This document shows, piece by piece, positions 1,182 through 40,989 of a stretch of 51,643 nt of DNA. Origin of the DNA: a virus; the IMG/VR virus record IMGVR_UViG_3300033571_009592, positions 1 to 51,643 of that record; one strand, 5' to 3'. The first letter of the stretch is position 1, and each line of letters begins with the position of its first letter. Under the pieces are notes generated by a model. That model was not told where the DNA came from and made no database searches. It saw only the letters and a list, made by a program, of their open reading frames with translations. The translations under genes and the position numbers were made by a program.

Positions 1182-1278
1182 AGTCAGGTGGCGGAAATTG
1201 GTAGACGCGCAGCAAAGTGCTGATGTCAAAAGTATCCCGATAGCCAGGGATGTGCGGGTTCGAGTCCCGTCCTGACTA
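1182..1278 (+). tRNA. tRNA-like element 4 (Leu/Ser-like class II, contracted anticodon loop)
   Basis: Acceptor AGTCAGG (1182-1188) pairs with CCTGACT (1271-1277); discriminator A1278. The D arm is Leu-like with G18G19 (1200-1201); the T arm (1254-1270) is good; ATCCC/GGGAT (1234-1251) forms a class II variable arm. The anticodon position holds CAGCA-AAG-TGCTG (1210-1222), a perfect 5-bp stem with only a 3-nt loop. A shifted alternative gives loop ATGTCAA (GUC) with one mismatch but leaves about 8 extra nt. tRNA-derived by shape; decoding is questionable. Confidence 0.5.
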
Positions 1279-1297
1279 CAAAAAAGTTTTAAAAAAA

Positions 1298-1348: not shown

Positions 1349-1579
1349 ATGGGTGTTAAAGTTTCTAGAATGGTTGTGGTAAAGTACCAATTTCTTAAAA
1401 ACGGTGTTAAAAGAAATGAATTGTCTATTGAAGAAATAGACAAAATTACTAGAGAATTGTTAGATTATTTATCTGAATTAACAGTTCGTGGTATCACACA
1501 GATTGATGATGAAACAGTCGATCTATACAAAGAAAGAGTTTGGAATCTCATTGAAAGAGTTGGACTATTACCTGAATAA
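1349..1579 (+). CDS. Small hypothetical protein upstream of the CCA-adding-type enzyme
   Basis: 76 residues: a basic N-terminal strand region followed by an amphipathic helical part (ELSIEEIDKITRELLDYL). It is the first gene after the promoter at 1298-1329 and stops 1 nt before the nucleotidyltransferase start, so it is probably translationally coupled to it. Family not recognised. Confidence 0.65.
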   Translation: MGVKVSRMVVVKYQFLKNGVKRNELSIEEIDKITRELLDYLSELTVRGITQIDDETVDLYKERVWNLIERVGLLPE

Positions 1580-1580
1580 T

Positions 1581-2318
1581 ATGCCTAAAATATATAAAGT
1601 TGGTGGTTGTGTGAGAGATGGTATCTTAGGTATCGAATCTAAAGATATTGATTTCACATTTGTTTTAGATGACTTGAATCAAACTGTAGAAGAAGGATTT
1701 GAATCTATGACCGACTGGTTGGCACATGAGGCGTTCGGTATATTCCTTTCCACACCTGAATGTTTTACCATTAGGGCGAAATTCCCTAAATGTGTTCCGA
1801 ATGAAGGGTTAGTTGCAGATTTTGTATTGGCTAGAAAAGAAGTTGGGTACAAAGAAGGTACTAGACAACCTATTTTGGAATTAGGTACTTTGGAAGATGA
1901 TCTGGTTAGAAGAGACTTCACCCTCAACGCAATGGCAATCGATGAAGACGGTAATTTAATTGATTTATTTGGTGGTAAGGAAGATTTGAAAAAAAGAATT
2001 CTTAGAACCCCATTGGATCCAAGAGTTACGATGATGGATGATCCTTTGAGAATACTTAGGGCATTGAGATTTTCAATCACTAAGGGGTTTGAAATAGATG
2101 ATTCTATTTTTGTTGCAATGTCTCAACCTGAAATTCTTGAAAAATTAAGAACTACAGTTTCAGTTGAAAGAATTAGAGATGAGGTTTTCAAAATGATGAA
2201 ATATGATACCATTTCTACAATCAGATTGTTAACTAATGTAGATAAAGAACTCATACCAGGATTTTTTGAATTAGTATTCTCTAAAGGTCTTTGGTTAAAA
2301 CCAACATTTGAGCAATAA
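1581..2318 (+). CDS. cca: CCA-adding enzyme-type tRNA nucleotidyltransferase (short)
   Basis: A class II tRNA nucleotidyltransferase/poly(A) polymerase head domain. GGCVRD near residue 8 is the nucleotide-binding GGxVRD motif and DIDFTFV carries the two metal-binding aspartates; RRDFTLNAMA and DPLRILRALRF mark the head-neck region. At 245 residues it keeps head and neck but lacks most of the body/tail found in full-length enzymes (about 400 residues), so it may add only part of CCA, or A residues. The start at 1581 places MPKIYKVGG just before the motif. The four upstream tRNA-like elements lack encoded CCA, so 3'-end addition or repair is the natural role. Confidence 0.85.
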   Translation: MPKIYKVGGCVRDGILGIESKDIDFTFVLDDLNQTVEEGFESMTDWLAHEAFGIFLSTPECFTIRAKFPKCVPNEGLVADFVLARKEVGYKEGTRQPILELGTLEDDLVRRDFTLNAMAIDEDGNLIDLFGGKEDLKKRILRTPLDPRVTMMDDPLRILRALRFSITKGFEIDDSIFVAMSQPEILEKLRTTVSVERIRDEVFKMMKYDTISTIRLLTNVDKELIPGFFELVFSKGLWLKPTFEQ

Positions 2319-3977: not shown

Positions 3978-4841
3978 ATGGTATTAAATTTAGCAAACGA
4001 GGAATTAAGTAATATAAAATATAAAATATCTAAATTCCCAGATGGTCAACAAGATGTTACCATATTTAAAATTGGTAATTATATAAATAAACAGAGTGAG
4101 GTTACAATCAAGTCTAGATTTAATGATTTTAAAGATTTAGAGTTGATAATTTGTTCTACCAAGGCACTTAGGAATATGGGGGTGGAGAAAATACATCTTT
4201 ACATTCCTTATCTATTAGGTGCGAGAAGTGATAGACAATTTGTTGAGGGCGGAACATCGTATTTAAGAGATGTAATTGCACCCATTTTAAACTTACAAAA
4301 TTATAGTAGTGTAAGTTGTATAGATGCTCATAGTGATGTCGCTAGTGCATGTATCAACAATCTAAAAGTTATAGACAATCATGGGTTTATTAAAATTGCC
4401 TTAGCAAGACATAATCAGATTAGTTTAAAAAATGCGGTAGATTCATTTACGTTAGTATCTCCAGATGCTGGGGCACTTAAAAAAATATATAATTTAGCCA
4501 ATAATATTCGTTATAACAAAGATATTTTGATTGCTTCAAAACATAGGGATATCCAAAGTGGTAAGATATTAAGTACTTATGTTCCACTTAGAGACGGTGA
4601 ACACACAAATAATAATTTTCTAATTGTTGATGATATCTGTGATGGTGGTAGAACATTCATTGAAATTGCGAAAGTGATTCATGAAATAAGACCAAAGGCT
4701 AAAGTATCATTGGCAGTTACACACGGTATATTTTCAGCAGGTTTTAATGAACTAAGTAAGTATATTGAACATATATATTGTACCAATTCTATATACAATA
4801 TTGAAGATAATTTTAATATAACTCAAATAGATGTTTATTAA
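3978..4841 (+). CDS. prs: Ribose-phosphate pyrophosphokinase family protein (candidate NARP1 Adps)
   Basis: 287 residues with the PRPP-synthetase layout: KFPDGQ near the start, YLLGARSDRQF (ATP/ribose loop), CIDAHSD, SPDAGA, ASKHRD (catalytic-flap lysine) and the PRPP loop VDDICDGGRT near residue 220. It is slightly shorter than bacterial Prs (about 310-320). Canonical function is ATP + ribose-5-P to PRPP. In phages a Prs-like enzyme paired with a NAMPT-like enzyme is known as NARP1, where the Prs homologue pyrophosphorylates ADP-ribose; a NAMPT homologue lies 3.2 kb downstream on the same strand. Which substrate this one uses cannot be read from motifs. Confidence 0.9.
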   Translation: MVLNLANEELSNIKYKISKFPDGQQDVTIFKIGNYINKQSEVTIKSRFNDFKDLELIICSTKALRNMGVEKIHLYIPYLLGARSDRQFVEGGTSYLRDVIAPILNLQNYSSVSCIDAHSDVASACINNLKVIDNHGFIKIALARHNQISLKNAVDSFTLVSPDAGALKKIYNLANNIRYNKDILIASKHRDIQSGKILSTYVPLRDGEHTNNNFLIVDDICDGGRTFIEIAKVIHEIRPKAKVSLAVTHGIFSAGFNELSKYIEHIYCTNSIYNIEDNFNITQIDVY

Positions 4842-8057: not shown

Positions 8058-9605
8058 ATGAAAACAATTAATCCGTTACTTTTAACAGATGGTTACAAAA
8101 CAGGTCACCATCAACAGTATCCAGAGGGTACAACATTAGTCTATTCAAATTTCACACCTAGAAGTTTGAAACACGCCCCAAAACATTGTAATGAAATTGT
8201 TTCATTCGGACAACAAATGGTTATGAGAATCATTCATGAATCTTTTGATAGAGATTTCTTTTCTTTACCTAAAGAAGTTGTTTGTGGTGAAATGAAGCGT
8301 GAATTATCATTATACTTAAATACTGATTATGATGTTTCACACTTTGAGGCTCTTTGGGATCTACAATATCTACCTATTAAGGTAAAGGCAATTGAGGAAG
8401 GAAATATTGTGTCGGCAAAAATTCCAGTGTTAACAATCTATAACACACTTCCTGAATTCTATTGGATTACCAACTATTTGGAAACAATCATTTCCAACTT
8501 ATTGTGGAAACCAATGACATCCGCAACAATCGCACATAACTACAGAAAGGTATTAACATCTTGGCAAGAAAAAACAGATGCTGAACGTGGTTGGTTTATC
8601 GATTGGCAAGGTCATGACTTCTCAATGAGAGGGATGGATTCAATTGATGCAACAATATCATCGGGCATTGGGCATTTAGCATCATTCTCTGGTTCAGATT
8701 CACTACCAGCAATCTATGGGGCTAGAAAGTATTACGATGAAAGTGGATTTATTTCAGGTTCGGTTAATGCGACAGAACACTCGGTTATGTGTGCTGGAAC
8801 CAAAGATGATGAAGTCGGAACATTCAGAAGGTTACTGGAAACATATCCTACAGGAATCTTATCAGTTGTGTCTGATACTTGGGATTTATGGAAAGTATGT
8901 ACCGAACACGTAGTTACTTTGAAAGAAGAAATTATGAATCGTGATGGTAAACTTGTTATTCGTCCTGACTCTGGAGACCCAGTAGATATTCTTTGTGGTA
9001 CCCAAAGAATGGCGGATGATGCATGTAATAAATCACCTGAAGGGCATGGTGTAATTGAATTACTTTGGGGTGTATTTGGTGGAACAATCAACGAACAAGG
9101 TTACAAAGTTCTTGACCCACACATCGGAGCAATCTATGGTGACTCAATCACAATCGATAGGGCAGATGAAATCTGCGAAAGATTGGAAGCAAAAGGATTT
9201 GCATCAACAAATGTGGTATTAGGTATCGGTTCATTCACTTACCAATATAATACTAGAGATACATTTGGATTCGCAATGAAGGCAACTTATGTTGAAGTTA
9301 AACACTGGGATGTTGCAACCGAAAGACTTAATGAGTCTTTTGATAAAAACGCAAACCCAGAATGGATTGAGGGTAGAGAAATCTTCAAAGACCCAATCAC
9401 TGATGACGGAACTAAAAAATCTGCAACAGGTTTACTTTGTGTGAAAAAAGATTACGATGGTAAATATACTTTAATTGATAAGGTTACTTGGGAAGGTGAA
9501 AACACTGGAGAACTTAAAACTATTTATTCTGACGGTAATTTTTATAACATCACAACTTTAACTGAAATACGTCAAAGATTGAGTAGAGTTTTAGAAACAG
9601 TTTAA
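8058..9605 (+). CDS. nadV: Nicotinamide phosphoribosyltransferase family protein (NadV; candidate NARP1 Namat)
   Basis: 515 residues, close to the usual length (human NAMPT about 490). Hallmarks: LLLTDGYKTGHHQQYP at the N-terminus, NATEHSVM near residue 240 containing the catalytic histidine, RPDSGDP, YGDSITIDR and the TRDTFGFAMK region. It joins nicotinamide to PRPP or, in NARP1, to ADP-ribose pyrophosphate, regenerating NAD+. A Prs homologue lies upstream on the same strand. No NMN adenylyltransferase is visible in the window, which favours NARP1 over NARP2 unless one lies elsewhere. A terminator follows at 9626. Confidence 0.93.
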   Translation: MKTINPLLLTDGYKTGHHQQYPEGTTLVYSNFTPRSLKHAPKHCNEIVSFGQQMVMRIIHESFDRDFFSLPKEVVCGEMKRELSLYLNTDYDVSHFEALWDLQYLPIKVKAIEEGNIVSAKIPVLTIYNTLPEFYWITNYLETIISNLLWKPMTSATIAHNYRKVLTSWQEKTDAERGWFIDWQGHDFSMRGMDSIDATISSGIGHLASFSGSDSLPAIYGARKYYDESGFISGSVNATEHSVMCAGTKDDEVGTFRRLLETYPTGILSVVSDTWDLWKVCTEHVVTLKEEIMNRDGKLVIRPDSGDPVDILCGTQRMADDACNKSPEGHGVIELLWGVFGGTINEQGYKVLDPHIGAIYGDSITIDRADEICERLEAKGFASTNVVLGIGSFTYQYNTRDTFGFAMKATYVEVKHWDVATERLNESFDKNANPEWIEGREIFKDPITDDGTKKSATGLLCVKKDYDGKYTLIDKVTWEGENTGELKTIYSDGNFYNITTLTEIRQRLSRVLETV

Positions 9606-9625: not shown

Positions 9626-9650
9626 AAAACCCACAATTGTGGGTTTTTTT
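9626..9650 (+). terminator. Rho-independent terminator after nadV
   Basis: AACCCACA (9628-9635) pairs with TGTGGGTT (9638-9645) and is followed by a T run to 9650. It ends the operon that closes with the NAMPT homologue. Confidence 0.85.
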
Positions 9651-9666
9651 ATTAAAAATAAATTAC

Positions 9667-9674
9667 TATATTTG
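9667..9674 (+). promoter_or_regulatory. -7 element of RNA ligase promoter (leaderless)
   Basis: TATATTTG, a perfect Bacteroidota -7 box, only 4 nt before the ATG at 9679. The -33 region is T-rich without a clean TTTG. The geometry predicts a leaderless or nearly leaderless transcript and also selects the start at 9679. Confidence 0.65.
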
Positions 9675-9678
9675 TATT

Positions 9679-10734
9679 ATGAATGAAGTTTTAAATAAAT
9701 ATGTTGAGGATGGGTTGTTATATAAACAAATTCACCCTACGTTAGATTTAACAATATGGAATTATAGTGAGAAGGTTCAATACGAATCTTTATGGGATGA
9801 AATAACTTTAATGTGTCGTGGGTTGGTTACAAATTCTAAAGGTGATATAGTCGCAAGACCATTTAAGAAGTTCTTCAATATAGAAGAAAATAAATATACC
9901 CCATCATCTGAGTTTGATGTTTTTGATAAAATGGATGGTTCATTAGGTATATTATTCTTTTATGGAGGTGAATCGGTTTTCGCCACCAGAGGTTCATTCA
10001 CTTCCGAACAATCAATAAAGGGGTTTGAGATGTTACAGAAGTATGATTACGATAAGTTACATAAAGATTATACATACTTATTTGAAATCATTTACGATGA
10101 TAATAGAATAGTTGTTAGATATGATTTTGAGGATCTTATATTACTTGGTATGATTAATACCGAAACTGGTTATGAGGTTGATTTATATTCTAATGAAACA
10201 GATGTAAGATTTAAAAATTTAATAACTAATTTAGGTTTTAAAGTAGTTAAGAAGTACGATGGTATATATGATTATTCCCTTTTAAAGGGTATGATTAAGG
10301 ATGATGAAGAAGGTTTCGTTGTTCGTTTCTCTAATGGAGATAGGATTAAGGTTAAGGGTGAAGAATATTTACGTCTACATAAGATAATGACAAATATATC
10401 CACCACTACTGTGTGGGAAATTTTATCAAGTGGTGGTAATATAGAAGACTTACTTAAAGATGTACCAGATGAATTTTATGATAAAATTAAAACTTACACC
10501 AGTAGTTTAAATTACCAATGGTATCAGTATTTTAATCAACTAGGTAAATCTTATGACTATTTTAGATATGGTAAATATGGGGATAAAGAGGTAGAACCAA
10601 CAAAGAAAGAATTTGCGGAATTCATAAAAGATAAACACCCAATAGTAAAGGCAATAATGTTTGCGATGTGGGATGGAAAAGATTATAATAAAATTATTTG
10701 GAAGGCATTAAAACCAGAATATAAAAAATTATAA
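9679..10734 (+). CDS. rnlA: T4 RNA ligase 1-type (Rnl1) RNA ligase
   Basis: 351 residues. Lys84 in KMDGSLG (84-90) is the nucleotidyl-accepting lysine of motif I; RGSFT, LFEIIY, EEGFVVRF and KVKGEEYLRLHK correspond to motifs Ia-V. Family role: ATP-dependent joining of RNA 5'-phosphate and 3'-OH ends, classically repair of tRNAs cut by host anticodon nucleases. Partners in this window are a kinase at 13315, the CCA-adding-type enzyme at 1581 and a HAD_SAK-type protein at 27629. The frame is open upstream into the terminator, but the ATG at 9679 fits the TATATTTG box. Confidence 0.92.
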   Translation: MNEVLNKYVEDGLLYKQIHPTLDLTIWNYSEKVQYESLWDEITLMCRGLVTNSKGDIVARPFKKFFNIEENKYTPSSEFDVFDKMDGSLGILFFYGGESVFATRGSFTSEQSIKGFEMLQKYDYDKLHKDYTYLFEIIYDDNRIVVRYDFEDLILLGMINTETGYEVDLYSNETDVRFKNLITNLGFKVVKKYDGIYDYSLLKGMIKDDEEGFVVRFSNGDRIKVKGEEYLRLHKIMTNISTTTVWEILSSGGNIEDLLKDVPDEFYDKIKTYTSSLNYQWYQYFNQLGKSYDYFRYGKYGDKEVEPTKKEFAEFIKDKHPIVKAIMFAMWDGKDYNKIIWKALKPEYKKL

Positions 10735-18032: not shown

Positions 18033-20229
18033 CATTTTAAGAGAAAGTGGTATTGTTGAAAGAATCATTGGTGATTTATCTGTTTATGGTGATATACCTA
18101 ACAAAGGTTTTTTAGGTGGGGGTGCAGTTGCAAATTTATTAATGAGTTATGTTTGGGAAGAAGATTACCCAATTAATGATTTAGATATTTTTATAGAGGA
18201 TGAAGGTGATACTATTAGACAACGACCAAATTCACCTGTAAGAAGTGCGAATTTATCTATTGAAGGTGACGGTTATATGGTAACAAAATTATCCTTTGAA
18301 TCGGGAACTACCTATAGAATAATGGGTGTTGAAAGGGAGGGTATGCTCAATACAATAGTAATTAGTAAAATATATGATAGAGAAAAAAGAAAAGATTACA
18401 ATTATATATTAAATGGATTTGATTTTAATTGTTGTCAGGTTGGTATTGATTTGGAGAGTAACAAATTATTTTATACTGAAGATTTTGAAAACTTCTTAAA
18501 TAATAAACAATTAGAAGTTACTGCAATTTATACACCATCACATACTGCAATAAGATTATTTAAGAAGATTGATGAACTTAAATGTTACTGCAATGTGGAT
18601 GAGTGTATGGAGTTACTATCTCAACCACTTATAACAGAAAATATTTTAAAGATAAATAAAACCCATTTTGGTTTATATTTTAGTTTGAAATATAGGGATA
18701 TGTATATGAAGTATTATACCAATATTAAAGAATACTTCAAAATGGTTAGATTATTTGATCACAAAAAAAGATTGTGGATTGAGAAACACAAAGGTGAAAA
18801 TAATATACCATCAACACACACACTCGCTTGGTTAGATAATAAAACTGTAATACCACAACAACTATTAGACAGTTGGGCAAAACATAGTGAAGTTATATGG
18901 ACTTTAGAACCAAAAAAATTCATTAAACCTAACAAAGTTATTATGGATGTGTTAAAAGATATGAATTTTAATCCTTTAACATTCATGAATGCGTATAGAA
19001 TAACCACCAATAAATTAAATAAAAAATTAAAAGAGAAAGCAAATAAAGTACTTACAGGTAACTATAAGTTATGTAAAATGTTGGCTATTGTTGATAGTGA
19101 TTTCTATGATTGCGATTTTGATGAAAAACATTTAGATTATGTTGAAAATTTTGTTGATAGTGAAAGATGGGCACTTGTAACTATGGTTAGAGAAAGGATG
19201 AATGTGCAGGAATCTTATAACTTAATAAAAGATATTAAAAAGATATTAAATAAAGAAGGTGAATGGGTTTCAGAATTAATCTCACAATACCTCCACAGGA
19301 AAAATAAGGCGGTTAAACCTACTTATGAAAATATCCTAAACGGTATCTCCAAAGAAAAAGAAAAATATTGTGTAAGTCTAATTAAACCTTTATCTTTAGA
19401 TGAATTAAATTTACCTAATGAAGATATAAAGATTAAAGAGTTAACTACTGAATTGGATCTTAGATGGGCTGGTAAGAAATTAAATAATTGTATGAATAAT
19501 TCTGGACAAAATTACGCAGGTAAAATAAAAAGTGGTAAAACTAAATTATTTGTGATAATGACAAAAAACAATATGTCTGGTTTAGAATTCGAATTAGTTG
19601 AGGAAACTGTTTATCGTATAGTGCAGATATTATCTTATTGTAATAAAGTGACTAGTGAATATCATAAAACTGTTGGTAATCTTCTAGCAAATTATTTAAA
19701 TATGAAACATTTAAAAGAGATTTATGAATCTAAGATGAGTTCATTTGTTAGTATTGATTTACTGAATAGATCATTTTTATTGAATCTAAAAGACGAAAAA
19801 ACTAGTGAAAACCCAACAGCTTTATTTGGTGAAGGTTTATATGGTGGTGGAATTGTTATGGAAGAGGAGGTAACGGAAGAATATGTTATGGAAGAAGAGT
19901 TAACGGAAGAAGGAATACGTGTGGAATTACCTAATCCAGATGGTGAAGGTGATATACTAGTGCCAATTAGAAATATTGGGGATATTCGAAATTATAATGA
20001 TATACGACAACCATTTGAATTGAGAGTTGTGTTACCAGAAGAATTGGAACAACGAATAGAGAGAATTCAACAAGAAGATAGAACAATAATAGTACCCGAT
20101 ACACCAATGGGAAATAACGCTCCCCCAATTATTCAAATGAATTGTAATATAGTACCAACTAATTTATGGGATAATCAACCCATTAATGATAATGATAATG
20201 AAATTGGGTATAACGATTATAGGGATTAA
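18022..20229 (+). CDS. Nucleotidyltransferase-fold/PcfJ-like fusion with LxE propeptide
   Basis: 735 residues. MKSNILRE gives a predicted L-x-E cleavage site after residue 8. LGGGAVANLL (31-40) and INDLDIFIED (51-60) are the glycine motif and D-x-D of a nucleotidyltransferase fold. Residues about 474-560 (WAGKKLNNCMNNSG, then IVQILSYCNKVT) resemble the PcfJ-like domain. The C-terminal 120 residues are acidic and repetitive (EEEVTEEYVMEEELTEE). A packaged nucleotidyltransferase is the most economical reading, but neither activity nor packaging is proven. Confidence 0.6.
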   Translation: MKSNILRESGIVERIIGDLSVYGDIPNKGFLGGGAVANLLMSYVWEEDYPINDLDIFIEDEGDTIRQRPNSPVRSANLSIEGDGYMVTKLSFESGTTYRIMGVEREGMLNTIVISKIYDREKRKDYNYILNGFDFNCCQVGIDLESNKLFYTEDFENFLNNKQLEVTAIYTPSHTAIRLFKKIDELKCYCNVDECMELLSQPLITENILKINKTHFGLYFSLKYRDMYMKYYTNIKEYFKMVRLFDHKKRLWIEKHKGENNIPSTHTLAWLDNKTVIPQQLLDSWAKHSEVIWTLEPKKFIKPNKVIMDVLKDMNFNPLTFMNAYRITTNKLNKKLKEKANKVLTGNYKLCKMLAIVDSDFYDCDFDEKHLDYVENFVDSERWALVTMVRERMNVQESYNLIKDIKKILNKEGEWVSELISQYLHRKNKAVKPTYENILNGISKEKEKYCVSLIKPLSLDELNLPNEDIKIKELTTELDLRWAGKKLNNCMNNSGQNYAGKIKSGKTKLFVIMTKNNMSGLEFELVEETVYRIVQILSYCNKVTSEYHKTVGNLLANYLNMKHLKEIYESKMSSFVSIDLLNRSFLLNLKDEKTSENPTALFGEGLYGGGIVMEEEVTEEYVMEEELTEEGIRVELPNPDGEGDILVPIRNIGDIRNYNDIRQPFELRVVLPEELEQRIERIQQEDRTIIVPDTPMGNNAPPIIQMNCNIVPTNLWDNQPINDNDNEIGYNDYRD

Positions 20230-20264
20230 CTTATCGATAAAATAGTATAATTTATTTTTCCCAG

Positions 20265-20273
20265 ATATTTATA
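20265..20273 (+). promoter_or_regulatory. ATATTTATA promoter-like motif
   Basis: Exact motif 16 nt before the ATG at 20290. Confidence 0.45.
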
Positions 20274-20289
20274 ATAAAATGGTGGGAAG

Positions 20290-20478
20290 ATGGAAAATGG
20301 TAGCACTGTTGATAAGGCATTATTTTATTTGGGTAAAATAAATCCTGAAGAACTACAAAATAATTTTGATCTAATTTATGATAGATACAAAGCTAGAGCA
20401 GAAAAAAAAGGTCTTCATGGGGATATTAAATTTGTAGAATCATTAGAGACTATCTTTATCTATGTTATGATAATTTGA
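20290..20478 (+). CDS. Small hypothetical protein overlapping a terminator
   Basis: 62 residues, mostly charged helix (DLIYDRYKARAEKK). Its last 11 codons lie inside the terminator stem-loop at 20445-20493, so the protein tail (IFIYVMII) may be dictated by RNA structure. It has an ATATTTATA motif upstream. No family recognised. Confidence 0.5.
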   Translation: MENGSTVDKALFYLGKINPEELQNNFDLIYDRYKARAEKKGLHGDIKFVESLETIFIYVMII

Positions 20479-20493
20479 TAGTCTCTTTTTTTT
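20445..20493. terminator. Terminator between convergent genes
   Basis: AGAGACTATC (20445-20454) pairs perfectly with GATAGTCTCT (20477-20486), 22-nt loop, followed by a T run to 20493. It overlaps the end of the 20290 gene and abuts the ferritin stop on the other strand. Confidence 0.7.
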
Positions 20494-20980
20494 ATGAATT
20501 TCTGACGTTCAAATCAAATTGATATAAACCTGATCCGTTATTACCAATTATCTTCAATTGATTGATTAATGATTTAAATTTATACTCTTCTTCTCTTTGT
20601 TCACATATAAACCATTGAATAAAGTTTTCTGTATTAAAATCATTTGTTTCTCTACACGCAATTAATAATTCATTGAATGTATTAGTTATTTCTTTTTCAT
20701 TGAACAAACTATCCTCAAAAAAACGTAAAAGATTAAATTCTTCGTATTTATCTTCTAAAAAAGTGTTTGTTGGTATAGATGGTTTTTGATCACATTCCAA
20801 TAAAAAATCACATATCTTTAACATATGATGTCTTTCTTCTTCTGATTGTTTTCTAAAGAATTTTGCGACACCACTATAACCATTTACATCACATAAGATA
20901 GATAGGTTTAAATAATAGAAAGACGCTCTATTTTCTAACCATAATTGACTATTTAATAAGTTTAAAACTTTTTCATTCAT
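20492..20980 (-). CDS. ftnA: Ferritin (FtnA-like)
   Basis: 162 residues. Ferroxidase ligands follow the bacterial ferritin pattern: Glu16 in WLENRAS, Glu49 and His52 in SEEERHHM, a Glu in the third helix (FNEKEITN), and WFICEQREEE with Glu and Gln in the fourth. Predicted to form a 24-mer iron-storage cage, taking up Fe2+. The frame extends 38 codons upstream, but MNEKVLNLLNSQ begins the ferritin homology and starts 1 nt after the bS21 stop, so the two form a small minus-strand operon. Ferritin is uncommon in phages. Confidence 0.88.
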   Translation of the reverse strand: MNEKVLNLLNSQLWLENRASFYYLNLSILCDVNGYSGVAKFFRKQSEEERHHMLKICDFLLECDQKPSIPTNTFLEDKYEEFNLLRFFEDSLFNEKEITNTFNELLIACRETNDFNTENFIQWFICEQREEEYKFKSLINQLKIIGNNGSGLYQFDLNVRNS

Positions 20981-20981
20981 A

Positions 20982-21170
20982 TTAATTATTTTTATTTTTT
21001 TTATTCTGGATAAAAATAGCTTTATTCTTTTCTTCTCTATTTTTAACTGATTTTTTAACAAATTCTTGTCTGTCCCTACATTCTTTAGTGACATTGGTTT
21101 TAATGAATTTACCTTTTAGTTCTTTTAAGGCTCTTTCTATGTTACCATTTTTAACTTCTATCTTTAACAT
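20982..21170 (-). CDS. rpsU: Ribosomal protein bS21 homologue
   Basis: 62 residues, the usual bS21 length. MLKIEVKNGNIERALKELK is the N-terminal strand-helix and the Arg/Lys-rich second helix follows (TKECRDRQEFVKKS), ending in a basic tail that fits the Bacteroidota form of the protein. In Bacteroidota, bS21 helps occlude the anti-Shine-Dalgarno sequence of 16S rRNA. A phage copy could exchange with host bS21 and bias initiation towards phage mRNAs. Coexpressed with ferritin. Confidence 0.87.
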   Translation of the reverse strand: MLKIEVKNGNIERALKELKGKFIKTNVTKECRDRQEFVKKSVKNREEKNKAIFIQNKKNKNN

Positions 21171-21196
21171 ATTGATAAATTTTATAATAAAATGTA

Positions 21197-21205
21197 ATAT
21201 TTATA
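21197..21205 (+). promoter_or_regulatory. ATATTTATA promoter-like motif
   Basis: Exact motif in the divergent intergenic region between bS21 (-) and the tagged protein at 21230 (+), 24 nt before that start codon, in the sense orientation of the tagged gene. Confidence 0.5.
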
Positions 21206-21229
21206 ATTATAAAAGTAAATATAAAGGAA

Positions 21230-22309
21230 ATGAAAATAGTAAATATATTAAATGAAGGTAAAATTAATAATATACATAGAAAATTATTAAACGCAATTAA
21301 TAATTCTTTGGGTTATGATGACTCTATTGAAGACGCTTGGACATTTTTAAGTGATGACTTATCTATTGATGATATGGATTTAAAAATAGAGGTTTTACAC
21401 CTATATAATCAATACGATGATGAAGAAGGATTTAATAATCTACAGGATTCAGATTTGGATGGGGCAGGAAACATTGATAATGATAGAATAATGGCGTTGG
21501 CGTTATTTTTAGATGTACCACCTATTTTAATTGAGGACATGATGTACTCACATTTTGATATGAATACATATAAAGATTTGACTACCGAAAAAGTTTATGC
21601 CGTTGGTGATGAAAGTGAGGCAGAAGAATCTATGAGACTTTATTTTTCAGATTTTGTTGATAATCAAGGAGGTTTAGAAAATATCGACAGATATTTATTA
21701 GATGACTATATAGAAATTGATGAATATGTAGTGAGACAATTCGCTAGAGAAGAGGCGGAAATTATTGTTGATGATATGGATGAAGATGATGTTATTAGTG
21801 AAGCGGGTTATGATAAAGATGATATAGAATCAGTTATTGAGGACTTAGAAGAAAAAATTAGTGAATTAAATGATGAGATAAGAAGTTTAGAATCTGAAAT
21901 GGATGAATTTATTTCAGATAATGATGAAGGTGATTATGATTCAGAAATAGAAGATTTAGAGGAAAGAATTAATGAATTAATGACTGAAATGAGTAATTTA
22001 GAATCTCAGTTAGAGACAGAAAAAAGTAATTTAGAATCTCTTTATGAAACCGCCAAAGAAGAGTTAATAGATAAAAAAGAAGAAGAAATATATGATAATA
22101 TAGAATATAGCGGGGTAGATTATTTTACAAATGAACTAGGTTATACTTTTACAGATGCAGTTAATCGATACTTTACATTAGATGAAAGTGCGTTAGAGGA
22201 ATATTTGGCAGAAAATGAAGATAGAGGTCAAACTTTAGGACCCTATGACGGACAAGAAAATGAACAATATTATGATGGTACATATTATTTTATATACAGG
22301 ACAGATTAA
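21230..22309 (+). CDS. Acidic coiled-coil protein with LxE propeptide
   Basis: 359 residues. MKIVNILNE gives a predicted L-N-E cut after residue 9. Residues about 10-75 contain the helical module shared with other tagged proteins (FLSDDLSIDDMDLKIEVLHLY). From about 200 to 285 a long Glu-rich coiled coil carries heptads and an SNLES repeat. The C-terminus is Tyr-rich. The strong acidity resembles scaffold or DNA-mimic internal proteins, but function is unknown. First gene after an ATATTTATA motif; heads a five-gene tagged cluster. Confidence 0.65.
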   Translation: MKIVNILNEGKINNIHRKLLNAINNSLGYDDSIEDAWTFLSDDLSIDDMDLKIEVLHLYNQYDDEEGFNNLQDSDLDGAGNIDNDRIMALALFLDVPPILIEDMMYSHFDMNTYKDLTTEKVYAVGDESEAEESMRLYFSDFVDNQGGLENIDRYLLDDYIEIDEYVVRQFAREEAEIIVDDMDEDDVISEAGYDKDDIESVIEDLEEKISELNDEIRSLESEMDEFISDNDEGDYDSEIEDLEERINELMTEMSNLESQLETEKSNLESLYETAKEELIDKKEEEIYDNIEYSGVDYFTNELGYTFTDAVNRYFTLDESALEEYLAENEDRGQTLGPYDGQENEQYYDGTYYFIYRTD

Positions 22310-22315
22310 AAAATT

Positions 22316-22909
22316 ATGTTAAAGGAAAAATATTTAAAAAAAATTATTAGAAGGGTTTTATCTGAGAACTATCAATCAGATATGGAGTCATACAATGAAA
22401 TTAAAAATTTACTATATAGGGTATGGGATAAACTAAAAGAAAGGGGTATATCGCCGAAATTAGATGGGTTAACATATAATTTGGCAGATATTAAAAAAAA
22501 CAGTAATCTAGAGTTACATATTTTATTACCAATATGGTTTGAATATAATGGTGGTTTCGAAAAGGTGTATGAGGAGTATTTAAATAATTTAGAAGGTAAA
22601 GAATTTAATATCACTGAATCTGAATATGATTTAGATATGAATATTATGATATTAAATGTTGAATTATATATTGAGGAATTTTCAGTTGAATTAGGGGTTA
22701 GGGTTCTGGATAGTGAAGTTAATGGGTTTATATTAAATGATGATGGTGAGGAAATACAGATGAGAATGACAATTCAGGATCAGTTGGCGGAGTTAGAATA
22801 CGATTCACAAGATTTTGAGCAATATATAAAAGAAAATATTATAAATACATTAAATGAGTTATTTGAAGAAAAATATGGTATAACAATAAATGATATAAGA
22901 TTTGTATGA
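22316..22909 (+). CDS. Propeptide-tagged putative capsid protein
   Basis: 197 residues. KKIIRRVLSE at residues 8-17 ends in L-S-E, predicting cleavage after residue 17. The mature part is acidic with alternating strands; no motif recognised. Overlaps the next gene by 4 nt. Confidence 0.62.
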   Translation: MLKEKYLKKIIRRVLSENYQSDMESYNEIKNLLYRVWDKLKERGISPKLDGLTYNLADIKKNSNLELHILLPIWFEYNGGFEKVYEEYLNNLEGKEFNITESEYDLDMNIMILNVELYIEEFSVELGVRVLDSEVNGFILNDDGEEIQMRMTIQDQLAELEYDSQDFEQYIKENIINTLNELFEEKYGITINDIRFV

Positions 22910-27308: not shown

Positions 27309-27632
27309 ATGAATTATATAATCGAAGAAATTTATGAAATATCTTGTGATACTGATAAGATATTAACTGTGGTATTTAGATTAGAAGGTGATGGTGAAGA
27401 TTATTACAGAAAATTAGTAGATAGTGATTACTATAACTGGTGTAATGAACATTATATATCTGAAGGTGAAAATTTTTACGAATTAGATATCTATGATGAT
27501 GAAGAATACATGCCTGATTATTTTAATTACGATAAATGGAATATGTATTATTCTAATGAAGACATGGTTATAGACTATATTATGGATAATTACCCATCTT
27601 TAAAAAGTCTACCTTCGGCACAGATAGATTAG
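27309..27632 (+). CDS. Very acidic hypothetical protein
   Basis: 107 residues, about a quarter Asp/Glu with many Tyr (NEHYISEGENFYELDIYDDEE). Compact alternating strands suggest a folded domain; strong acidity is compatible with a DNA mimic, without further support. Convergent with the long minus-strand gene; the two stops overlap by 4 nt. Confidence 0.55.
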   Translation: MNYIIEEIYEISCDTDKILTVVFRLEGDGEDYYRKLVDSDYYNWCNEHYISEGENFYELDIYDDEEYMPDYFNYDKWNMYYSNEDMVIDYIMDNYPSLKSLPSAQID

Positions 27633-29437
27633 TAAACCAAATTAACTATTAAATCTATACCGTTCTCTTCTCCCCATCGTTCAAATTCGATTGAGTGTGG
27701 TTCTCTATCCTCCCACATTTCTATTTGTTCTACGTTAGGGTATCTTAAAACTAATGATCTTAGTGTATTTATTTTACTACCTAATGTATCACCATTACCT
27801 TTGTAATGATATTCATCAAACTGAATATTATGTAACTTTAAAAGTCCTTCTACTTGTTTAGATTGTTGTGGTAGTCTACCTGTCAACATAATAACTAAAG
27901 TATTAGGTTTTTTTAATTCCAACCTATAATCCACTACAGTTTGTTCTATTGGTTGAATATCGAATATTGAATCATCTAAAGATTCTGGTTTACTCCACCA
28001 ACCAATGTGAGGGTATTTTTTTCCAGTAATTTTCTCCCAATGATTTTTACCTTCTTCTGGATGTGGCGTATCCATAAGAGTACCATCAAAATCAAAAATA
28101 GATATTTTAGTTATGTTATTTGTATTTTCTTTAATTAATTTTTTATTAAATCTAACACTTTCATTTAAATCTAAAACACTTCCTTGTATCCAGTTAGTTA
28201 AATCTTCTATTGGAACAAGATGACTTTTACCTTCATAAGTGAATTTAATTTTATTAGAACCTAAATCTACATCGTTACTATAGAATTCTAATTTACCATC
28301 CTCACTTCTATATAAATCTATTTTGTCACTAACTTTTTTCACTAATTTAAATCCTAATTTTTCAATCAGTTCGTTAAACCTTCTTCTATTTTCTAGTAAT
28401 TCTGATAAATCTATATCACCCTCTTCAATTATCGAATCTATTATCCTCCTCAACGTTCTATTAAATTCTGTAACTACATCCTCAATACCTTCTTCATCTA
28501 CCCACTTTTCATAATAAGAATCTTCTAAATAAACACTTGGTTGTATTTCAGCATCTTTTAATTCTGATAAATTTAATAAATTTTTTTCTATAATTATTTG
28601 TACTAAATCCTCATATGGAACTTCTATACAATAAGAACCACTACTACAACTAGCGTCTTTTATATTATATTTTATTTCTGAATCGTATTTCTCTCTTGTT
28701 GATGCGTTTCTACCTCTAGTAACTGCGTAACCCAATTCAGTAGTATAATCAGATACAATAGTGTTATAATATTCTGTAGGTAATATACTATCTAAAAATT
28801 TTGCGATGACACCCGATTCCATTGGGTTTGAGGAATCTTTACCTGGCCAATCATTTTTACCTGCAATCGTTGCTAATTCTTCTAAAAGCTCTATAGTTTC
28901 TTCATTGGTATAGGGATAATTAAATTCATCATCGTCCATTTCATCATAATCATCACCATATGTACTATGTGCTTTGTTATAAACCCATAAATCATTTTCA
29001 TCTAAACCAGAAAAATATTTCTCCCAGTCATCAGAATCTAATTCTAATGTAACAGAATCATCATTCCAAACAATACAAGGTGTCGTACTTCTCCATCCAC
29101 CACATTCTACATTAAACCAGTCACCGTATATTTTTTCTAATTTTTCGTATTCATTGTCATACATATAATCTATGTAATCCGACCTTTCAGAATCAGAATT
29201 AAAAGAACTCATTTTCTTAATAAAAGATAAAAGAGTACTATCATCATATTCTATTTCGTTATAATCCCCCTCACCTTTAGTATAATACCATATAGAGTAT
29301 AAGTGGGCGGCTTCTTTTGAATCTAAACCTAAATCATCCTTTAGGAATTTAAATGCTTTATTTTTATCACTAACATCATATAAATGTTGATCTAAATATG
29401 TTAGAAATTTTATTTCTGGTTTACTTAATTTTCTCAT
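27629..29437 (-). CDS. HAD_SAK-type (RNA-repair-like) HAD domain protein with internal LxE-type site
   Basis: 602 residues. Residues about 442-602 are a HAD domain: IFDFDGTLMDTPH (nucleophile Asp), VIMLTGRLPQQS and MWEDREPHSIEFE, matching the Swiss-Army-Knife RNA-repair-like HAD group. The N-terminus carries the helical module shared with tagged virion proteins (FLKDDLGLDSKEAAHLYSIW) but no N-terminal tag. Just before the HAD domain, RFNKKLIKE resembles a capsid-targeting/cleavage sequence. Hence possibly a virion protein split by the prohead protease, or an RNA 3'-end phosphatase. Has an ATATTTATA motif in its sense orientation. Confidence 0.65.
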   Translation of the reverse strand: MRKLSKPEIKFLTYLDQHLYDVSDKNKAFKFLKDDLGLDSKEAAHLYSIWYYTKGEGDYNEIEYDDSTLLSFIKKMSSFNSDSERSDYIDYMYDNEYEKLEKIYGDWFNVECGGWRSTTPCIVWNDDSVTLELDSDDWEKYFSGLDENDLWVYNKAHSTYGDDYDEMDDDEFNYPYTNEETIELLEELATIAGKNDWPGKDSSNPMESGVIAKFLDSILPTEYYNTIVSDYTTELGYAVTRGRNASTREKYDSEIKYNIKDASCSSGSYCIEVPYEDLVQIIIEKNLLNLSELKDAEIQPSVYLEDSYYEKWVDEEGIEDVVTEFNRTLRRIIDSIIEEGDIDLSELLENRRRFNELIEKLGFKLVKKVSDKIDLYRSEDGKLEFYSNDVDLGSNKIKFTYEGKSHLVPIEDLTNWIQGSVLDLNESVRFNKKLIKENTNNITKISIFDFDGTLMDTPHPEEGKNHWEKITGKKYPHIGWWSKPESLDDSIFDIQPIEQTVVDYRLELKKPNTLVIMLTGRLPQQSKQVEGLLKLHNIQFDEYHYKGNGDTLGSKINTLRSLVLRYPNVEQIEMWEDREPHSIEFERWGEENGIDLIVNLVY

Positions 29438-33149: not shown

Positions 33150-34232
33150 ATGGATAAAATAAAAAATAAGGCGTTAACATATGATGATGTTCTATTAATA
33201 CCGAAATATTCAGATATTAGTAGTAGATCACACATTAATTTAAATACAAAAGTTAGTAGAAGATATGGGTTGTTAACCCCTTATGTTGCGTCTTGTATGG
33301 ATACAGTATGTGAATCTGAAATGGCAATTAAAATGGCTGAACTAGGTGGTGTAGGGTGTATTCATAGATTTATGACAGTAGAGGAACAATGTGAAGAAGT
33401 AAAAAAAGTTAGAAAACATTTTCAAACGTATTCATTATATGAGCTATGGGGTGTTATGTATGACAATTGGCATAGTGAAATACAAGATATTCCCGTTATG
33501 GCTGCCATTGGAGTAATGGTTAGCGACATCCAAAGAGCAATTAAATTAGTTGAATCAGGTGTGAATATTTTAATAATTGATGTGGCACATGGTCATCATT
33601 CTAACGTTAAAACTATGATTTCTGAATTAAAGAAAAACTTACCCGATCATGTTGATATCATTGCTGGGAATATATCAACTACGGAATCTGCTATGGATCT
33701 ACGTGAATGGGGTGCTGATGGTTTAAGAGTTGGTATTGGTGGTGGTAGTTTATGTACTACTAGAATAAAAACTGGACATGGTGTACCAAACGTACAATCT
33801 ATAGTGGATTGTATTGTTGATTCAGAAATACCTGTTATGGCTGATGGTGGTATTAGAAATAGTGGTGATATTGCTAAGGCATTAGGATTAGGTGCGTCTT
33901 GTGTTATGTTAGGTTCCTTATTGGCTGGAACAAAAGAATCTCCAGGTAAAATCGTTTCAATTCGTGATGGTTCACTTTATAAAAAATATAGAGGTTCTGC
34001 TAGTTTAGAAACTAAATCTACACATGGTCAGTCTACTAAACATATCGAAGGTGAATCTACATTAATTCCATTTAAGGGTAATGTTTCCTATATAGTAGAA
34101 AGTCTTAATGATGGTGTGAAATCTGCACTATCTTATAGTGGGTGTAGAACAATAACTGAGTTCAACGAAAAAGCAACTTTTGTGGAAATAACTAATTCAG
34201 GAATGGCAGAATCAAAGGCACATTTACTATAG
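33150..34232 (+). CDS. guaB: IMP dehydrogenase/GMP reductase family enzyme (no CBS domains)
   Basis: 360 residues of a TIM-barrel purine dehydrogenase. LTYDDVLLIPKYSD, IIDVAHGHHSNV, GADGLRVGIGGGSLCTTR (catalytic Cys) and VMADGGIRNSGDIAKALGLG are diagnostic. CBS domains present in most IMPDHs are absent. The length suits GMP reductase, while the C-terminus (SYSGCRTITEF, ITNSGMAESKAHLL) looks more like IMPDH. It would steer guanine nucleotide supply, consistent with the nearby thymidine kinase. Confidence 0.85.
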   Translation: MDKIKNKALTYDDVLLIPKYSDISSRSHINLNTKVSRRYGLLTPYVASCMDTVCESEMAIKMAELGGVGCIHRFMTVEEQCEEVKKVRKHFQTYSLYELWGVMYDNWHSEIQDIPVMAAIGVMVSDIQRAIKLVESGVNILIIDVAHGHHSNVKTMISELKKNLPDHVDIIAGNISTTESAMDLREWGADGLRVGIGGGSLCTTRIKTGHGVPNVQSIVDCIVDSEIPVMADGGIRNSGDIAKALGLGASCVMLGSLLAGTKESPGKIVSIRDGSLYKKYRGSASLETKSTHGQSTKHIEGESTLIPFKGNVSYIVESLNDGVKSALSYSGCRTITEFNEKATFVEITNSGMAESKAHLL

Positions 34233-34707: not shown

Positions 34708-35295
34708 ATGAAAAAAACTATGGCAAAATTATATTTTAGATACTCAACTATGGGTGCAGGTAAATCATTAGACTTACTTAAAACTGCTTATAACTATGAA
34801 GAAAGAGATAGAAATATTATTCTATTCACTTCTAACTTAGATGATAGATATGGTAATAATAAAATTGCTTCTAGAATTGGTATTAGTAGAGACGCTTATT
34901 CTTTTGATGAGTCTACTAACTTATTTGAGTTTGTATCTGAAAAATGTTTTGGTTGTGATTGTGTTTTCATTGATGAATCTCAGTTCTTAACTAAAAGTCA
35001 AGTTTGGCAATTAACAGATATTGTAGATGAATTAGATTGTGATGTTATCGCATATGGGTTAAGGTCAGATTTTAAAGGAGAACCTTTTGAGGGTTCAATG
35101 TACCTAATGACTTTGGCAGATGAAATTGAAGAGCTTAAAACAGTTTGTAAATATGATAATAAAGCAATAATGAATATGAGGACATCCAACAATGTACCCG
35201 TCTTTAGCGGTTCTAAAGTTATGATTGGTGGTAATGATTCTTATATACCTGTTGGTAGAAAATATTATAAATTAATGAAGAAAAAATATGAATGA
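34708..35295 (+). CDS. tdk: Thymidine kinase (type II) without zinc cysteines
   Basis: 195 residues. Walker A STMGAGKS (13-20), VFIDESQF near 90 and YGLRSDFKGEPFEGS are type II thymidine kinase motifs. The zinc-ribbon cysteines usually seen before KA and in the C-terminal block are mostly gone: ELKTVCKYDNKA keeps one Cys and IPVGRKYY has Gly where Cys is normal. Function: thymidine to dTMP salvage. Overlaps the thioesterase by 8 nt. Confidence 0.92.
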   Translation: MKKTMAKLYFRYSTMGAGKSLDLLKTAYNYEERDRNIILFTSNLDDRYGNNKIASRIGISRDAYSFDESTNLFEFVSEKCFGCDCVFIDESQFLTKSQVWQLTDIVDELDCDVIAYGLRSDFKGEPFEGSMYLMTLADEIEELKTVCKYDNKAIMNMRTSNNVPVFSGSKVMIGGNDSYIPVGRKYYKLMKKKYE

Positions 35296-36168: not shown

Positions 36169-36240
36169 TGTGGAATGTTAATTGATAGTTATTAAATGAA
36201 AATTTATTATAAAAAATGATTTATAATACATTTTAATGTG

Positions 36241-36249
36241 ATATTTATT
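36241..36249 (+). promoter_or_regulatory. ATATTTATT promoter-like motif
   Basis: One-mismatch copy of ATATTTATA, 15 nt before the ATG of the T9SS cargo gene. Confidence 0.3.
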
Positions 36250-36264
36250 ATATATCTATTAACT

Positions 36265-37545
36265 ATGAAAAAATTATTAACCATTTTATTTGTTTTTTTT
36301 ATAGTATCATTACATGCCCAATGTAATGTTTATCAAGTTTTTGAAGGTTTTGGGTCAACAACTTTAACTACACAAGGTGGGACTTGGGCATCAAACTCAA
36401 TGATATCTTCTACAAATGCTTTTAGAACGGGGGCTAGATCAATAGGGTTTAATGGGTCTGGAGATTGGATAAGAACTCCGCAAATATCTACACCCGGAAT
36501 ATTGTCTTTTTGGTATAGAAGGAGTTCTAATACAACTGCTTGGCCATTAGTAGTTGAGACTTCTACTGATAATACTACATGGACAACTAGGGGTACTATT
36601 ACAAATGCTACCACAACATTTCAACAATATACCCTAAACTTAGGGGCACTTAATTTAACAAATGTTTATGTTAGGTTGCGAGACACTAGATCTAGTGGTG
36701 CACATGAAAGGTATGTAGAAGATTTATCTTGGACATCTACGAACTCAAATGATAATGTGTTAGTACCATTCCCAATAACAGGTAACTGTATACAAACCAT
36801 AAATTCTAGTTATACGATAATAGATCAAGGTGGTCCAAATGAAACTTATAATAATAGTATGGATCAAACTATGACATTACAACCCTCAGATAATACTAAA
36901 AAAATTGAATTAACATTTAGTTCTTTTAGTTTAGAAACAAATTACGATACACTGTTTGTATATGATGGACCAAATACTACTTTTACAAAAATAGGTAGTT
37001 ATACAGGTAACGTTAATCCTGGAACTATAACTTCAACATCATCGGGTGGTGAATTAACTTTAAGGGTAAAAACTGATGTATCTAATGTTGGATCTTGGAC
37101 TGGGTTTCAGGCAATTGCATCTATGATTACACCACTACCAGTAGAACTTATTCAATTTGATAGCGATGAATACCCACAATGGAATGTCATAAAATGGGCA
37201 ACTGCTTCAGAATATAATTCAGATTATTTTGATTTAGAATATAGTATAGATGGTGAGAATTGGGTAAGTTTAACTAAGAAAAAGGCTGCGGGTAATAGTA
37301 CAGAAATAATAAAATATTCTTACATCGACATTAATCAAAGTGAAATAACTTATTATAGATTATTACAATACGATGTAGATGGTAAGTTTAAAACATATGG
37401 GCCAATAAGTAGTTTAAAACAAATTAAAAATAAAGTAGTGGTTAATTATATTAATTTAATGGGTCAAACTGTTCACCAACAAACTAAAGGTGTTATAATT
37501 GAAGTTTATGATGATGGCACAACTAGAAAAATAATAAATTATTGA
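36265..37545 (+). CDS. Secreted CUB-domain protein with T9SS sorting domain
   Basis: 426 residues. A Sec signal peptide (MKKLLTILFVFFIVSLHAQ, cut after AQ) is followed by a Ser/Thr/Asn-rich beta domain (about 20-165), a CUB domain (about 175-290; DTLFVYDGPNTTFTKIG, GGELTLRVKTD), a LPVELIQFD-started fibronectin-like module (EYSIDGENW, TYYRLLQYDVDGKF) and a terminal sorting signal (INLMGQTVHQQTKG, YDDGTTRKI). This is the architecture of cellular T9SS cargo in Bacteroidota: exported by Sec, then to the cell surface. Start at 36265 gives the signal peptide. Probably acquired from a host. Confidence 0.85.
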   Translation: MKKLLTILFVFFIVSLHAQCNVYQVFEGFGSTTLTTQGGTWASNSMISSTNAFRTGARSIGFNGSGDWIRTPQISTPGILSFWYRRSSNTTAWPLVVETSTDNTTWTTRGTITNATTTFQQYTLNLGALNLTNVYVRLRDTRSSGAHERYVEDLSWTSTNSNDNVLVPFPITGNCIQTINSSYTIIDQGGPNETYNNSMDQTMTLQPSDNTKKIELTFSSFSLETNYDTLFVYDGPNTTFTKIGSYTGNVNPGTITSTSSGGELTLRVKTDVSNVGSWTGFQAIASMITPLPVELIQFDSDEYPQWNVIKWATASEYNSDYFDLEYSIDGENWVSLTKKKAAGNSTEIIKYSYIDINQSEITYYRLLQYDVDGKFKTYGPISSLKQIKNKVVVNYINLMGQTVHQQTKGVIIEVYDDGTTRKIINY

Positions 37546-37608: not shown

Positions 37609-38133
37609 ATGGATATAAAGAATATAATAGATGGTTGTCTAAAAAACAATAAAAAATCTGAATACGAATTATACAAATGTTGTAAATCTGTTGCACATAA
37701 AACAGTAAAACAATATATTAAAAATGATGTATTGTTAGATGACGTTATTCAAGAAGGGTTTATTAGATTATATAAAAATATTAATAAATATGATTTTGAA
37801 GGTAGTTTTGAGGGTTGGGTATATAGAATTTTTAAAAACATCTCAATAGACTATTTAAGAAAGAAAAAAATTGTTTTTGAATATAATGACAGATTAGAAG
37901 TTGTGGATAATGGTTATGATCATACTATAGACGAAAGACTGAAAGATATAAAAGATTTAGTTAAGACTTTACCAGAATCTTATAAAATTGTAACTACTTT
38001 ATATTATTATGAGGGTTTAAAACATAGAGAAATTGCAGAAAAAATAGATATTAATGAAGGAACTTCTAAAGCTTATTTACATAGAGCTAAAGGAAAAATA
38101 ATAAAAAAATTAAAAAACAAAGATTATGTTTAA
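37609..38133 (+). CDS. ECF-type sigma-70 family sigma factor
   Basis: 174 residues, normal ECF length. Region 2: LLDDVIQEGFIRLYKNINKY and VYRIFKNISIDYLRKKK. Region 4: LPESYKIVTTLYYYEGLKHR, EIAEKIDINEGTSKAYLHRA. There is no sigma region 1.1 or 3. Expressed from a host-type promoter, it could redirect RNA polymerase to the ATATTTATA motifs found before virion-type genes (inference). It overlaps the lipoprotein gene by 8 nt; no classical membrane anti-sigma factor is visible. Confidence 0.9.
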   Translation: MDIKNIIDGCLKNNKKSEYELYKCCKSVAHKTVKQYIKNDVLLDDVIQEGFIRLYKNINKYDFEGSFEGWVYRIFKNISIDYLRKKKIVFEYNDRLEVVDNGYDHTIDERLKDIKDLVKTLPESYKIVTTLYYYEGLKHREIAEKIDINEGTSKAYLHRAKGKIIKKLKNKDYV

Positions 38134-40794: not shown

Positions 40795-40989
40795 ATGAAG
40801 TATTTTAAATTGTTATTGATGTGGTTGGGATTTATTGCAATCACATCGTGGTTTGGCGAACATATCGTCAGTAGAGAAGTAAACGGGTTCCTCCAATTGT
40901 TATGTTTCGTTGGAGTGGTGGGAATCCTTATTTATGTAATTAACGAAACAAAAAAATTATTAACAAAAAAACAAAGAAAAAATGATTAG
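40795..40989 (+). CDS. Small two-pass membrane protein
   Basis: 64 residues with segments at about 5-20 and 33-50 and a basic tail (KKLLTKKQRKND). Start at 40795; the in-frame TTG at 40768 lies within the promoter. Overlaps the SPFH gene by 8 nt and probably forms a unit with it. Confidence 0.65.
   Translation: MKYFKLLLMWLGFIAITSWFGEHIVSREVNGFLQLLCFVGVVGILIYVINETKKLLTKKQRKND

Follow-up and report, generated by a model that had tools for sequence, protein, structure and literature searches.

The bS21 locus and other genes of the window

The window, i.e., the whole stretch of DNA under analysis, covers an entire virus record of IMG/VR (51,643 bases) and is AT-rich (G+C of 0.26-0.34 in 2-kb steps). 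Its bS21 gene is an ORF of the minus strand only, the plus strand being full of stop codons over the same interval (Table 1). The encoded protein matches PF01165 (E 7.3e-12; 45.3 bits against a Pfam cut-off of 27) and the NCBIfam model TIGR00030 (score of 36.9 against a cut-off of 28.95). By sequence, the closest solved chains are the bS21 chains 9i5v_9 and 7jil_z; Chen 2022 (PMC9723584) gives 7JIL as the ribosome of F. johnsoniae. Given these nearest chains, the first-pass annotation of a 62-residue bS21 of Bacteroidota type is correct, with the minus strand as the coding strand. The record has no second bS21. The dN/dS of the gene is 0.07 against its nearest viral relative (L002) and mostly 0.09-0.3 within the lineage, where the top pair reaches 0.47; bS21 is confirmed as a real gene under purifying selection. 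An Rfam search of positions 20000-22500 gives no match.

Table 1. Positions of the bS21 locus and of other features in the window.
Feature	Position	Strand	Description
tRNA-Ala prediction	1182-1279		98 nt, long for Ala
tRNA nucleotidyltransferase-like gene	1488-2318		
Ribose-phosphate pyrophosphokinase-like gene	3978-4841		
Nicotinamide phosphoribosyltransferase-like gene	8058-9605		
RNA ligase	9637-10734		
Convergent ORF	20290-20478	plus	62 aa; downstream of ferritin; in 5/5 unique ferritin-lineage loci
FtnA-type ferritin gene	20492-20980	minus	162 aa; PF00210 (E 4.8e-31); start 1 nt past the bS21 stop (TAATATG)
bS21 gene	20982-21170	minus	62 codons, 62 aa; ATG start, TAA stop; PF01165, TIGR00030
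Intergenic region	21171-21229		59 nt, separating bS21 (minus) from the divergent gene (plus); lacks an extended SD
TATAAATA, promoter candidate	21198-21205	minus	in the intergenic region upstream of bS21
Divergent gene	21230-22309	plus	359 aa; weak coiled-coil matches only; in 5/5 unique ferritin-lineage loci
602-aa protein	27629-29437	minus	HAD domain of RNA-repair proteins; kinase-like match
IMP dehydrogenase/GMP reductase-like gene	33150-34232		
Thymidine kinase	34708-35295		
CUB-domain protein	36238-37545		
Sigma-70 family factor	37609-38133		ECF type (NCBIfam ECF-like)
SPFH/Band 7 protein	40982-41929		

Among the other genes of the window, those for the pyrophosphokinase-like and nicotinamide phosphoribosyltransferase-like enzymes form a pair that presumably resembles the phage NAD+ reconstitution pathways countering NAD-depleting defences. 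The tRNA-Ala prediction, the tRNA nucleotidyltransferase-like gene, the RNA ligase and the HAD/kinase-like protein are a possible tRNA-repair set. Table 1 also has an IMP dehydrogenase/GMP reductase-like gene, a thymidine kinase gene and genes for a CUB-domain and an SPFH/Band 7 protein.

A ferritin gene directly behind bS21

The gene that follows bS21 encodes a ferritin. E. coli FtnA-like chains match the protein at an E of about 5e-28, and the predicted fold (mean pLDDT of 89) has an FtnA-like structure match with a TM of about 0.9. Residues E16, E48, E49, H52, E95, E127, Q128 and E131 are invariant across five phage ferritins and are taken here to be the ferroxidase positions of E. coli FtnA. 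While the phage ferritin has its fold and ferroxidase residues in common with the E. coli FtnA-type non-heme ferritin, it is about 34% identical to that protein, is encoded by a phage and is located directly behind bS21. The score against the NCBIfam equivalog for non-heme ferritin (NF007638) is 99.1 bits, below the cut-off of 178; thus, the window ferritin is a diverged member of the family. It is under purifying selection, with a dN/dS of 0.12 against its nearest relative.

A search of IMG/VR with the ferritin finds 7 relatives, in all 7 of which bS21 is immediately upstream, and a second, alignment-based scan returns the same 7 contigs. INPHARED includes 6 ferritin relatives of 27-33% identity. 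SA 1298 Kay is present in both the bS21 and the ferritin match lists, on separate contigs, and carries no weight. In the six loci examined, bS21 and ferritin are separated by 0 or 1 nt, the usual layout for translational coupling, which we infer for this pair. The two genes form one operon, which is a new genomic setting for bS21, itself an already familiar kind of phage gene. No description of a phage ferritin paired with bS21 was found in the open-licence literature; word searches return none of 'ferritin', 'iron' and 'autoregul' from the text of Chen 2022 (PMC9723584) and neither 'ferritin' nor 'Shine-Dalgarno' from that of Mizuno 2019 (PMC6375957).

Two genomic neighbourhoods of viral bS21

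Across 83 viral bS21 loci (42 unique at the DNA level), two genomic neighbourhoods are distinguished. In the first, bS21 is beside a 156-aa neighbour on the opposite strand (33 of 42 unique loci), with a head protease nearby in 29, a portal in 30 and a terminase in 19, each of these three identified from one example. This setting is the architecture described by Chen 2022 (PMC9723584). In the second, ferritin adjoins bS21 (5 of 42: the window, L002, L003, L006 and L086), and other common neighbours replace the 156-aa and packaging set. Within about 3.5 kb of bS21, no terminase, portal, head protease or capsid gene is found in the five unique loci of the lineage, nor is the bS21_CN-like 156-aa neighbour beside bS21 in the window lineage. 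Run with no positive control, searches for relatives of the Chen-type terminase and portal in the window record and 7 other records came back empty, as did one for the Chen-type 156-aa neighbour in 61 Bacteroidota genomes. A linear relative of 253,879 bases has a weak terminase-family match, with internal stops, about 178 kb from bS21; if this match is right, bS21 is not beside the packaging genes there.

The bS21 and ferritin genes are on the minus strand and the flanking genes on both sides are on the plus strand, the orientation seen in the Chen 2022 group. Like the Bacteroidetes jumbo phages of Chen 2022 (PMC9723584), the window encodes a Bacteroidetes-type bS21 on the opposite strand with an aromatic residue at position 54. 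It differs from them in having ferritin behind bS21 and no adjoining terminase, portal or head protease. The same paper already reports that Bacteroidetes phages carry bS21 and express it late, notes the aromatic residue 54 and raises the idea of takeover; the earlier remark was that bS21 is known from some large phages and that its role is unproven.

Residue 54 and helix 1 of the phage protein

In host bS21, the 3' tail of the 16S rRNA is held by position 54, which stacks on A1534 (McNutt 2023, PMC9976891). All 88 unique viral proteins have an aromatic at the corresponding position (Tyr in 82, Phe in 4 and His in 2). It is Phe53 in the window, as expected from the first-pass suggestion that this bS21 is tied to the hiding of the anti-Shine-Dalgarno (anti-SD) sequence.

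Helix 1 has diverged. All 159 cellular proteins aligned have a basic residue at position 18 and another at position 21, versus 5 of 88 viral proteins, a figure from a pooled viral set ranked by similarity to the queries; in 62 of the 88, neither is basic. This basic pair is a regularity of the present alignments, with no published criterion behind it. The window protein has Glu (E17) and Gly (G20) at host positions 18 and 21. The replacements are clade-specific (E/S, E/G, Q/F, R/Y and R/N), which suggests repeated loss. Chen 2022 (PMC9723584) lists positions 21, 23, 25 and 28 as divergent and notes the aromatic residue 54; that the basic residues of 18 and 21 are lost together, as read from the alignments, adds to that account. 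The strongest hint that the phage bS21 is more than a copy comes from this change in helix 1. The word ERALKELK was rejected as a phage hallmark, its use being circular since it was among the search patterns; the rescan let position 18 be E, R or Q and also took the F. johnsoniae protein as a query.

The phage bS21 and cellular Bacteroidia bS21, exemplified by F. johnsoniae rpsU (PMC9976891), have the fold family, the A1534-stacking aromatic and the C-terminal QN/QK region in common. By contrast, the phage gene is without the extended SD, and its protein has E/G at 18/21 and is one residue shorter near position 10. In a tree of 204 short proteins, 78 of the 88 viral sequences form one phage-only group (support of 88, below the tool's mark of 95) and the window lineage forms one clade (support of 94); the tree is weak as it is built from 64 columns only.

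Divergence of helix 1, together with the strict pairing of bS21 and ferritin in the window lineage, would also be compatible with a protein that mainly serves ferritin, through coupled translation or RNA binding, or that acts off the ribosome, and an extra-ribosomal bS21 partner is described for Halalkalibacterium (PMC12054373). Such a leader-cistron or non-ribosomal role is considered very unlikely, as the anti-SD-holding residue is retained and ferritin adjoins bS21 in only 5 of 42 unique viral loci.

The start region of bS21

In F. johnsoniae, ribosomes without bS21 translate rpsU by means of an extended SD, and an SD stronger than -13 kcal/mol is characteristic of rpsU in the phylum and is linked to host autoregulation (McNutt 2023, PMC9976891). 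An extended SD is defined here as a duplex with the anti-SD below -13 kcal/mol, with one duplex calculation applied to all sets. The bS21 start of the window has an energy of +0.6 kcal/mol and, thus, no extended SD. Viral start regions were pooled from 271 loci, of which 97 are unique by protein plus 30 nt upstream; none of the 97 is below -13, 5 have energies of -13 to -8, and the other 92 bind less strongly. Flavobacterium-type rpsU starts are below -13 in 60 of 60 unique cases (80 loci). In a Flavobacteriales-wide draw of 60 of the matches listed (58 unique), 8 of 58 are below -13 and 50 of 58 are without appreciable SD. In a phylum-wide set, which is not random (30 best-scoring loci plus 40 hand-picked regions), 28 of 56 are below -13. 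The cellular genomes were scanned with the F. johnsoniae protein, as the phage protein matched nothing when used as a query. No paper on the SDs of phage rpsU was found in the open-licence literature.

The cellular bS21 proteins closest to the phage one are mostly from the SD-less part of Flavobacteriales. An rpsU without SD is found in the small genomes represented by L201-L206, the likeliest relatives of the host; only L207, of the same best-ten list, and L209 have one. The rpsU genes L224 and L231 of G260 and G283, the genomes with the best DNA matches to part of the window, are likewise without SD. Loss of the SD as a phage adaptation is not accepted as established, since 50 of 58 order-wide starts and the likeliest host kin are SD-less as well. 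The phage bS21 gene is outside the SD feedback, either by loss of an SD or because one was never present. As the likely kin of the host are without an rpsU SD, escape from feedback may be moot for the window phage.

A phage-wide ban on the SD was also rejected, as 5 of the 97 viral starts carry AAAGGAGG (-11.8 kcal/mol). The carriers are L412 (LR756501, 735 kb), L448, L460, L480 and L484, and the spacing is such that the motif could act as an SD. Extra chromosomal bS21 genes without extended SD are noted in three flavobacterial genomes (L250, L251, L252 and L254 of G127, G097 and G112), in which another copy of the same genome has one. L250, L251 and L254 group with the viral bS21 L474 in the tree at modest support and are possible phage-derived paralogues. 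On a viral contig of 72,137 bases, the bS21 (L311) is nearly identical to the cellular L264, L267 and L268 and likewise has TGAGATG upstream; it may be host DNA or have been captured very recently.

Start-region grammar of phage and host

Start regions of the window were taken from 85 greedy, non-overlapping ATG ORFs of at least 60 aa with usable upstream sequence; bS21 itself is excluded by overlap with a longer ferritin ORF, and the ferritin start was set by hand. A is enriched at -3 (0.66), -6 (0.67), -11 (0.73), -12 (0.61) and -13 (0.64). The median SD energy of these starts is -1.1, weaker than that of other ATGs (-3.3), and 0 of 85 fall below -13 kcal/mol. Flavobacterial ORFs (188 from 12 pieces of 20 kb, with a wide spread between pieces) have A frequencies of 0.53 at -3, 0.53 at -12 and 0.53 at -11, and the A profiles of window and flavobacterial starts correlate at 0.48. 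The stronger A accent of the phage starts may just reflect AT content. A-rich starts, as claimed at first, are real in the window, and the leaderless starts named with them are putative. Their use as evidence that phage mRNAs are preferred fails, as the 188 flavobacterial genes share the SD-less, A-rich grammar; the phage starts follow the grammar of the host and, thus, nothing in cis marks a phage mRNA. The differences from the host are in the protein (helix 1) and in the bS21 mRNA (no extended SD), points that the first-pass annotation, as with the ferritin, leaves unmentioned.

This result bears on the proposal, made by Chen 2022 (PMC9723584), that ribosomes with the phage bS21 would select phage over host mRNA by means of a changed N-terminal helix close to the path of the mRNA. 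The proposal has in its favour that the divergent sites listed there are in this helix, at the expected place of mRNA binding, that the basic pair of helix 1 is largely missing from viral proteins and that its replacements are clade-specific. It is weakened by the pattern shared between phage and flavobacterial starts, which provides no phage-specific signal to select. Thus, the idea that the phage bS21 favours phage mRNAs was in print by 2022 and stays alive, if unproven, through the helix 1 change seen in the alignments, while the A-rich starts that had been offered for it are the grammar of the host itself; overall, selective reprogramming is regarded as doubtful.

Promoter signals were also considered. 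The candidate TATAAATA upstream of bS21 is not supported as a late promoter, as it is not above chance window-wide (22 found versus 20.2 expected). TATTTAT is within 80 nt upstream of 19 of the 85 starts, an over-representation of about 5x, and is a possible promoter element of window genes. The sigma factor of the window is ECF-like by NCBIfam and is not supported as a late factor. The host was also sought by CRISPR and DNA match, by comparing one 20-kb segment of the window with 395 genomes of Flavobacteriales; no clear spacer was found, and the only DNA matches are short, of 64-90% identity, and look like gene homology.

Proposed role of the phage bS21

The reading preferred here, at a probability of about one half, is that the phage encodes a working bS21 paralogue that keeps host ribosomes replete with bS21 for SD-less translation and does so outside the host feedback. 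During infection, the phage protein would sit where bS21 binds the 30S subunits of the host, and Phe53 (host 54) would hold the 3' tail of the 16S rRNA such that the anti-SD stays hidden. The ribosome would then stay efficient on SD-less, A-rich mRNA, i.e., on nearly all phage genes. As these genes are nearly all SD-less, bS21-replete ribosomes would be needed. The bS21 mRNA, having no extended SD, would be translated independently of bS21-depleted ribosomes and outside the feedback loop of the host, and a bS21 supplied from an SD-less mRNA would secure replete ribosomes once host expression fails. In hosts with an rpsU SD, phage bS21 at full occupancy may also keep the host rpsU repressed. 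Translation of the ferritin is probably coupled to that of bS21 on one mRNA, and the protein may store or detoxify iron in the same phase.

Several properties of the host system are relevant to this scheme. As reported by McNutt 2023 (PMC9976891), ribosomes that lack the C-terminus of bS21 initiate less well on SD-less mRNA and better on the SD-bearing rpsU, and a Y54A variant has a smaller defect in SD-less initiation than the C-terminal loss. Also according to this paper, bS21 joins the ribosome late and can dissociate, and phage bS21 and the host feedback are a subject of speculation. The only kind of phage bS21 shown to enter ribosomes, those of E. coli, is that of pelagiphage HTVC008M (Mizuno 2019, PMC6375957). 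The host of HTVC008M is of another phylum than that of the window phage, and its bS21 is probably not of the type that sequesters the anti-SD.

Four observations are counted against the paralogue reading: the loss of the basic pair of helix 1, which pure replacement would not need; the SD-less rpsU of the likely kin of the host; the presence of AAAGGAGG in five other viral bS21 starts; and the activity of E. coli ribosomes with the viral bS21 in vitro, cut to about 5% versus about 75% for tagged E. coli bS21 (Mizuno 2019, PMC6375957). The value of about 5% fits incompatibility, poisoning or a need for other factors. Were poisoning the cause, ribosomes with phage bS21 would be poor on most mRNAs and host synthesis would be shut down. 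This is scarcely probable for the window phage: the measurement is of a pelagiphage protein in E. coli, for which the authors name incompatibility as one cause, the SD-less mRNAs of the phage itself would be stopped too, and the residue holding the anti-SD is kept in all of the viral proteins.

In a more elaborate scheme, which is thought unlikely, bS21 and ferritin would be a two-gene takeover module. Here, the sensor is provided by host ribosomes that have no bS21 and translate the SD-bearing rpsU. Phage bS21 would fill every 30S subunit, the sensor would read 'full', host bS21 synthesis would stop and the pool would turn to the phage form; the neutralised helix 1 may then alter the choice of mRNA while the coupled ferritin manages iron.

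The absence of an extended SD, the retention of the residue that holds the anti-SD and the loss of the helix 1 pair split the idea of ribosome reprogramming into separate tests. The bS21-ferritin operon links a translation gene with iron handling.
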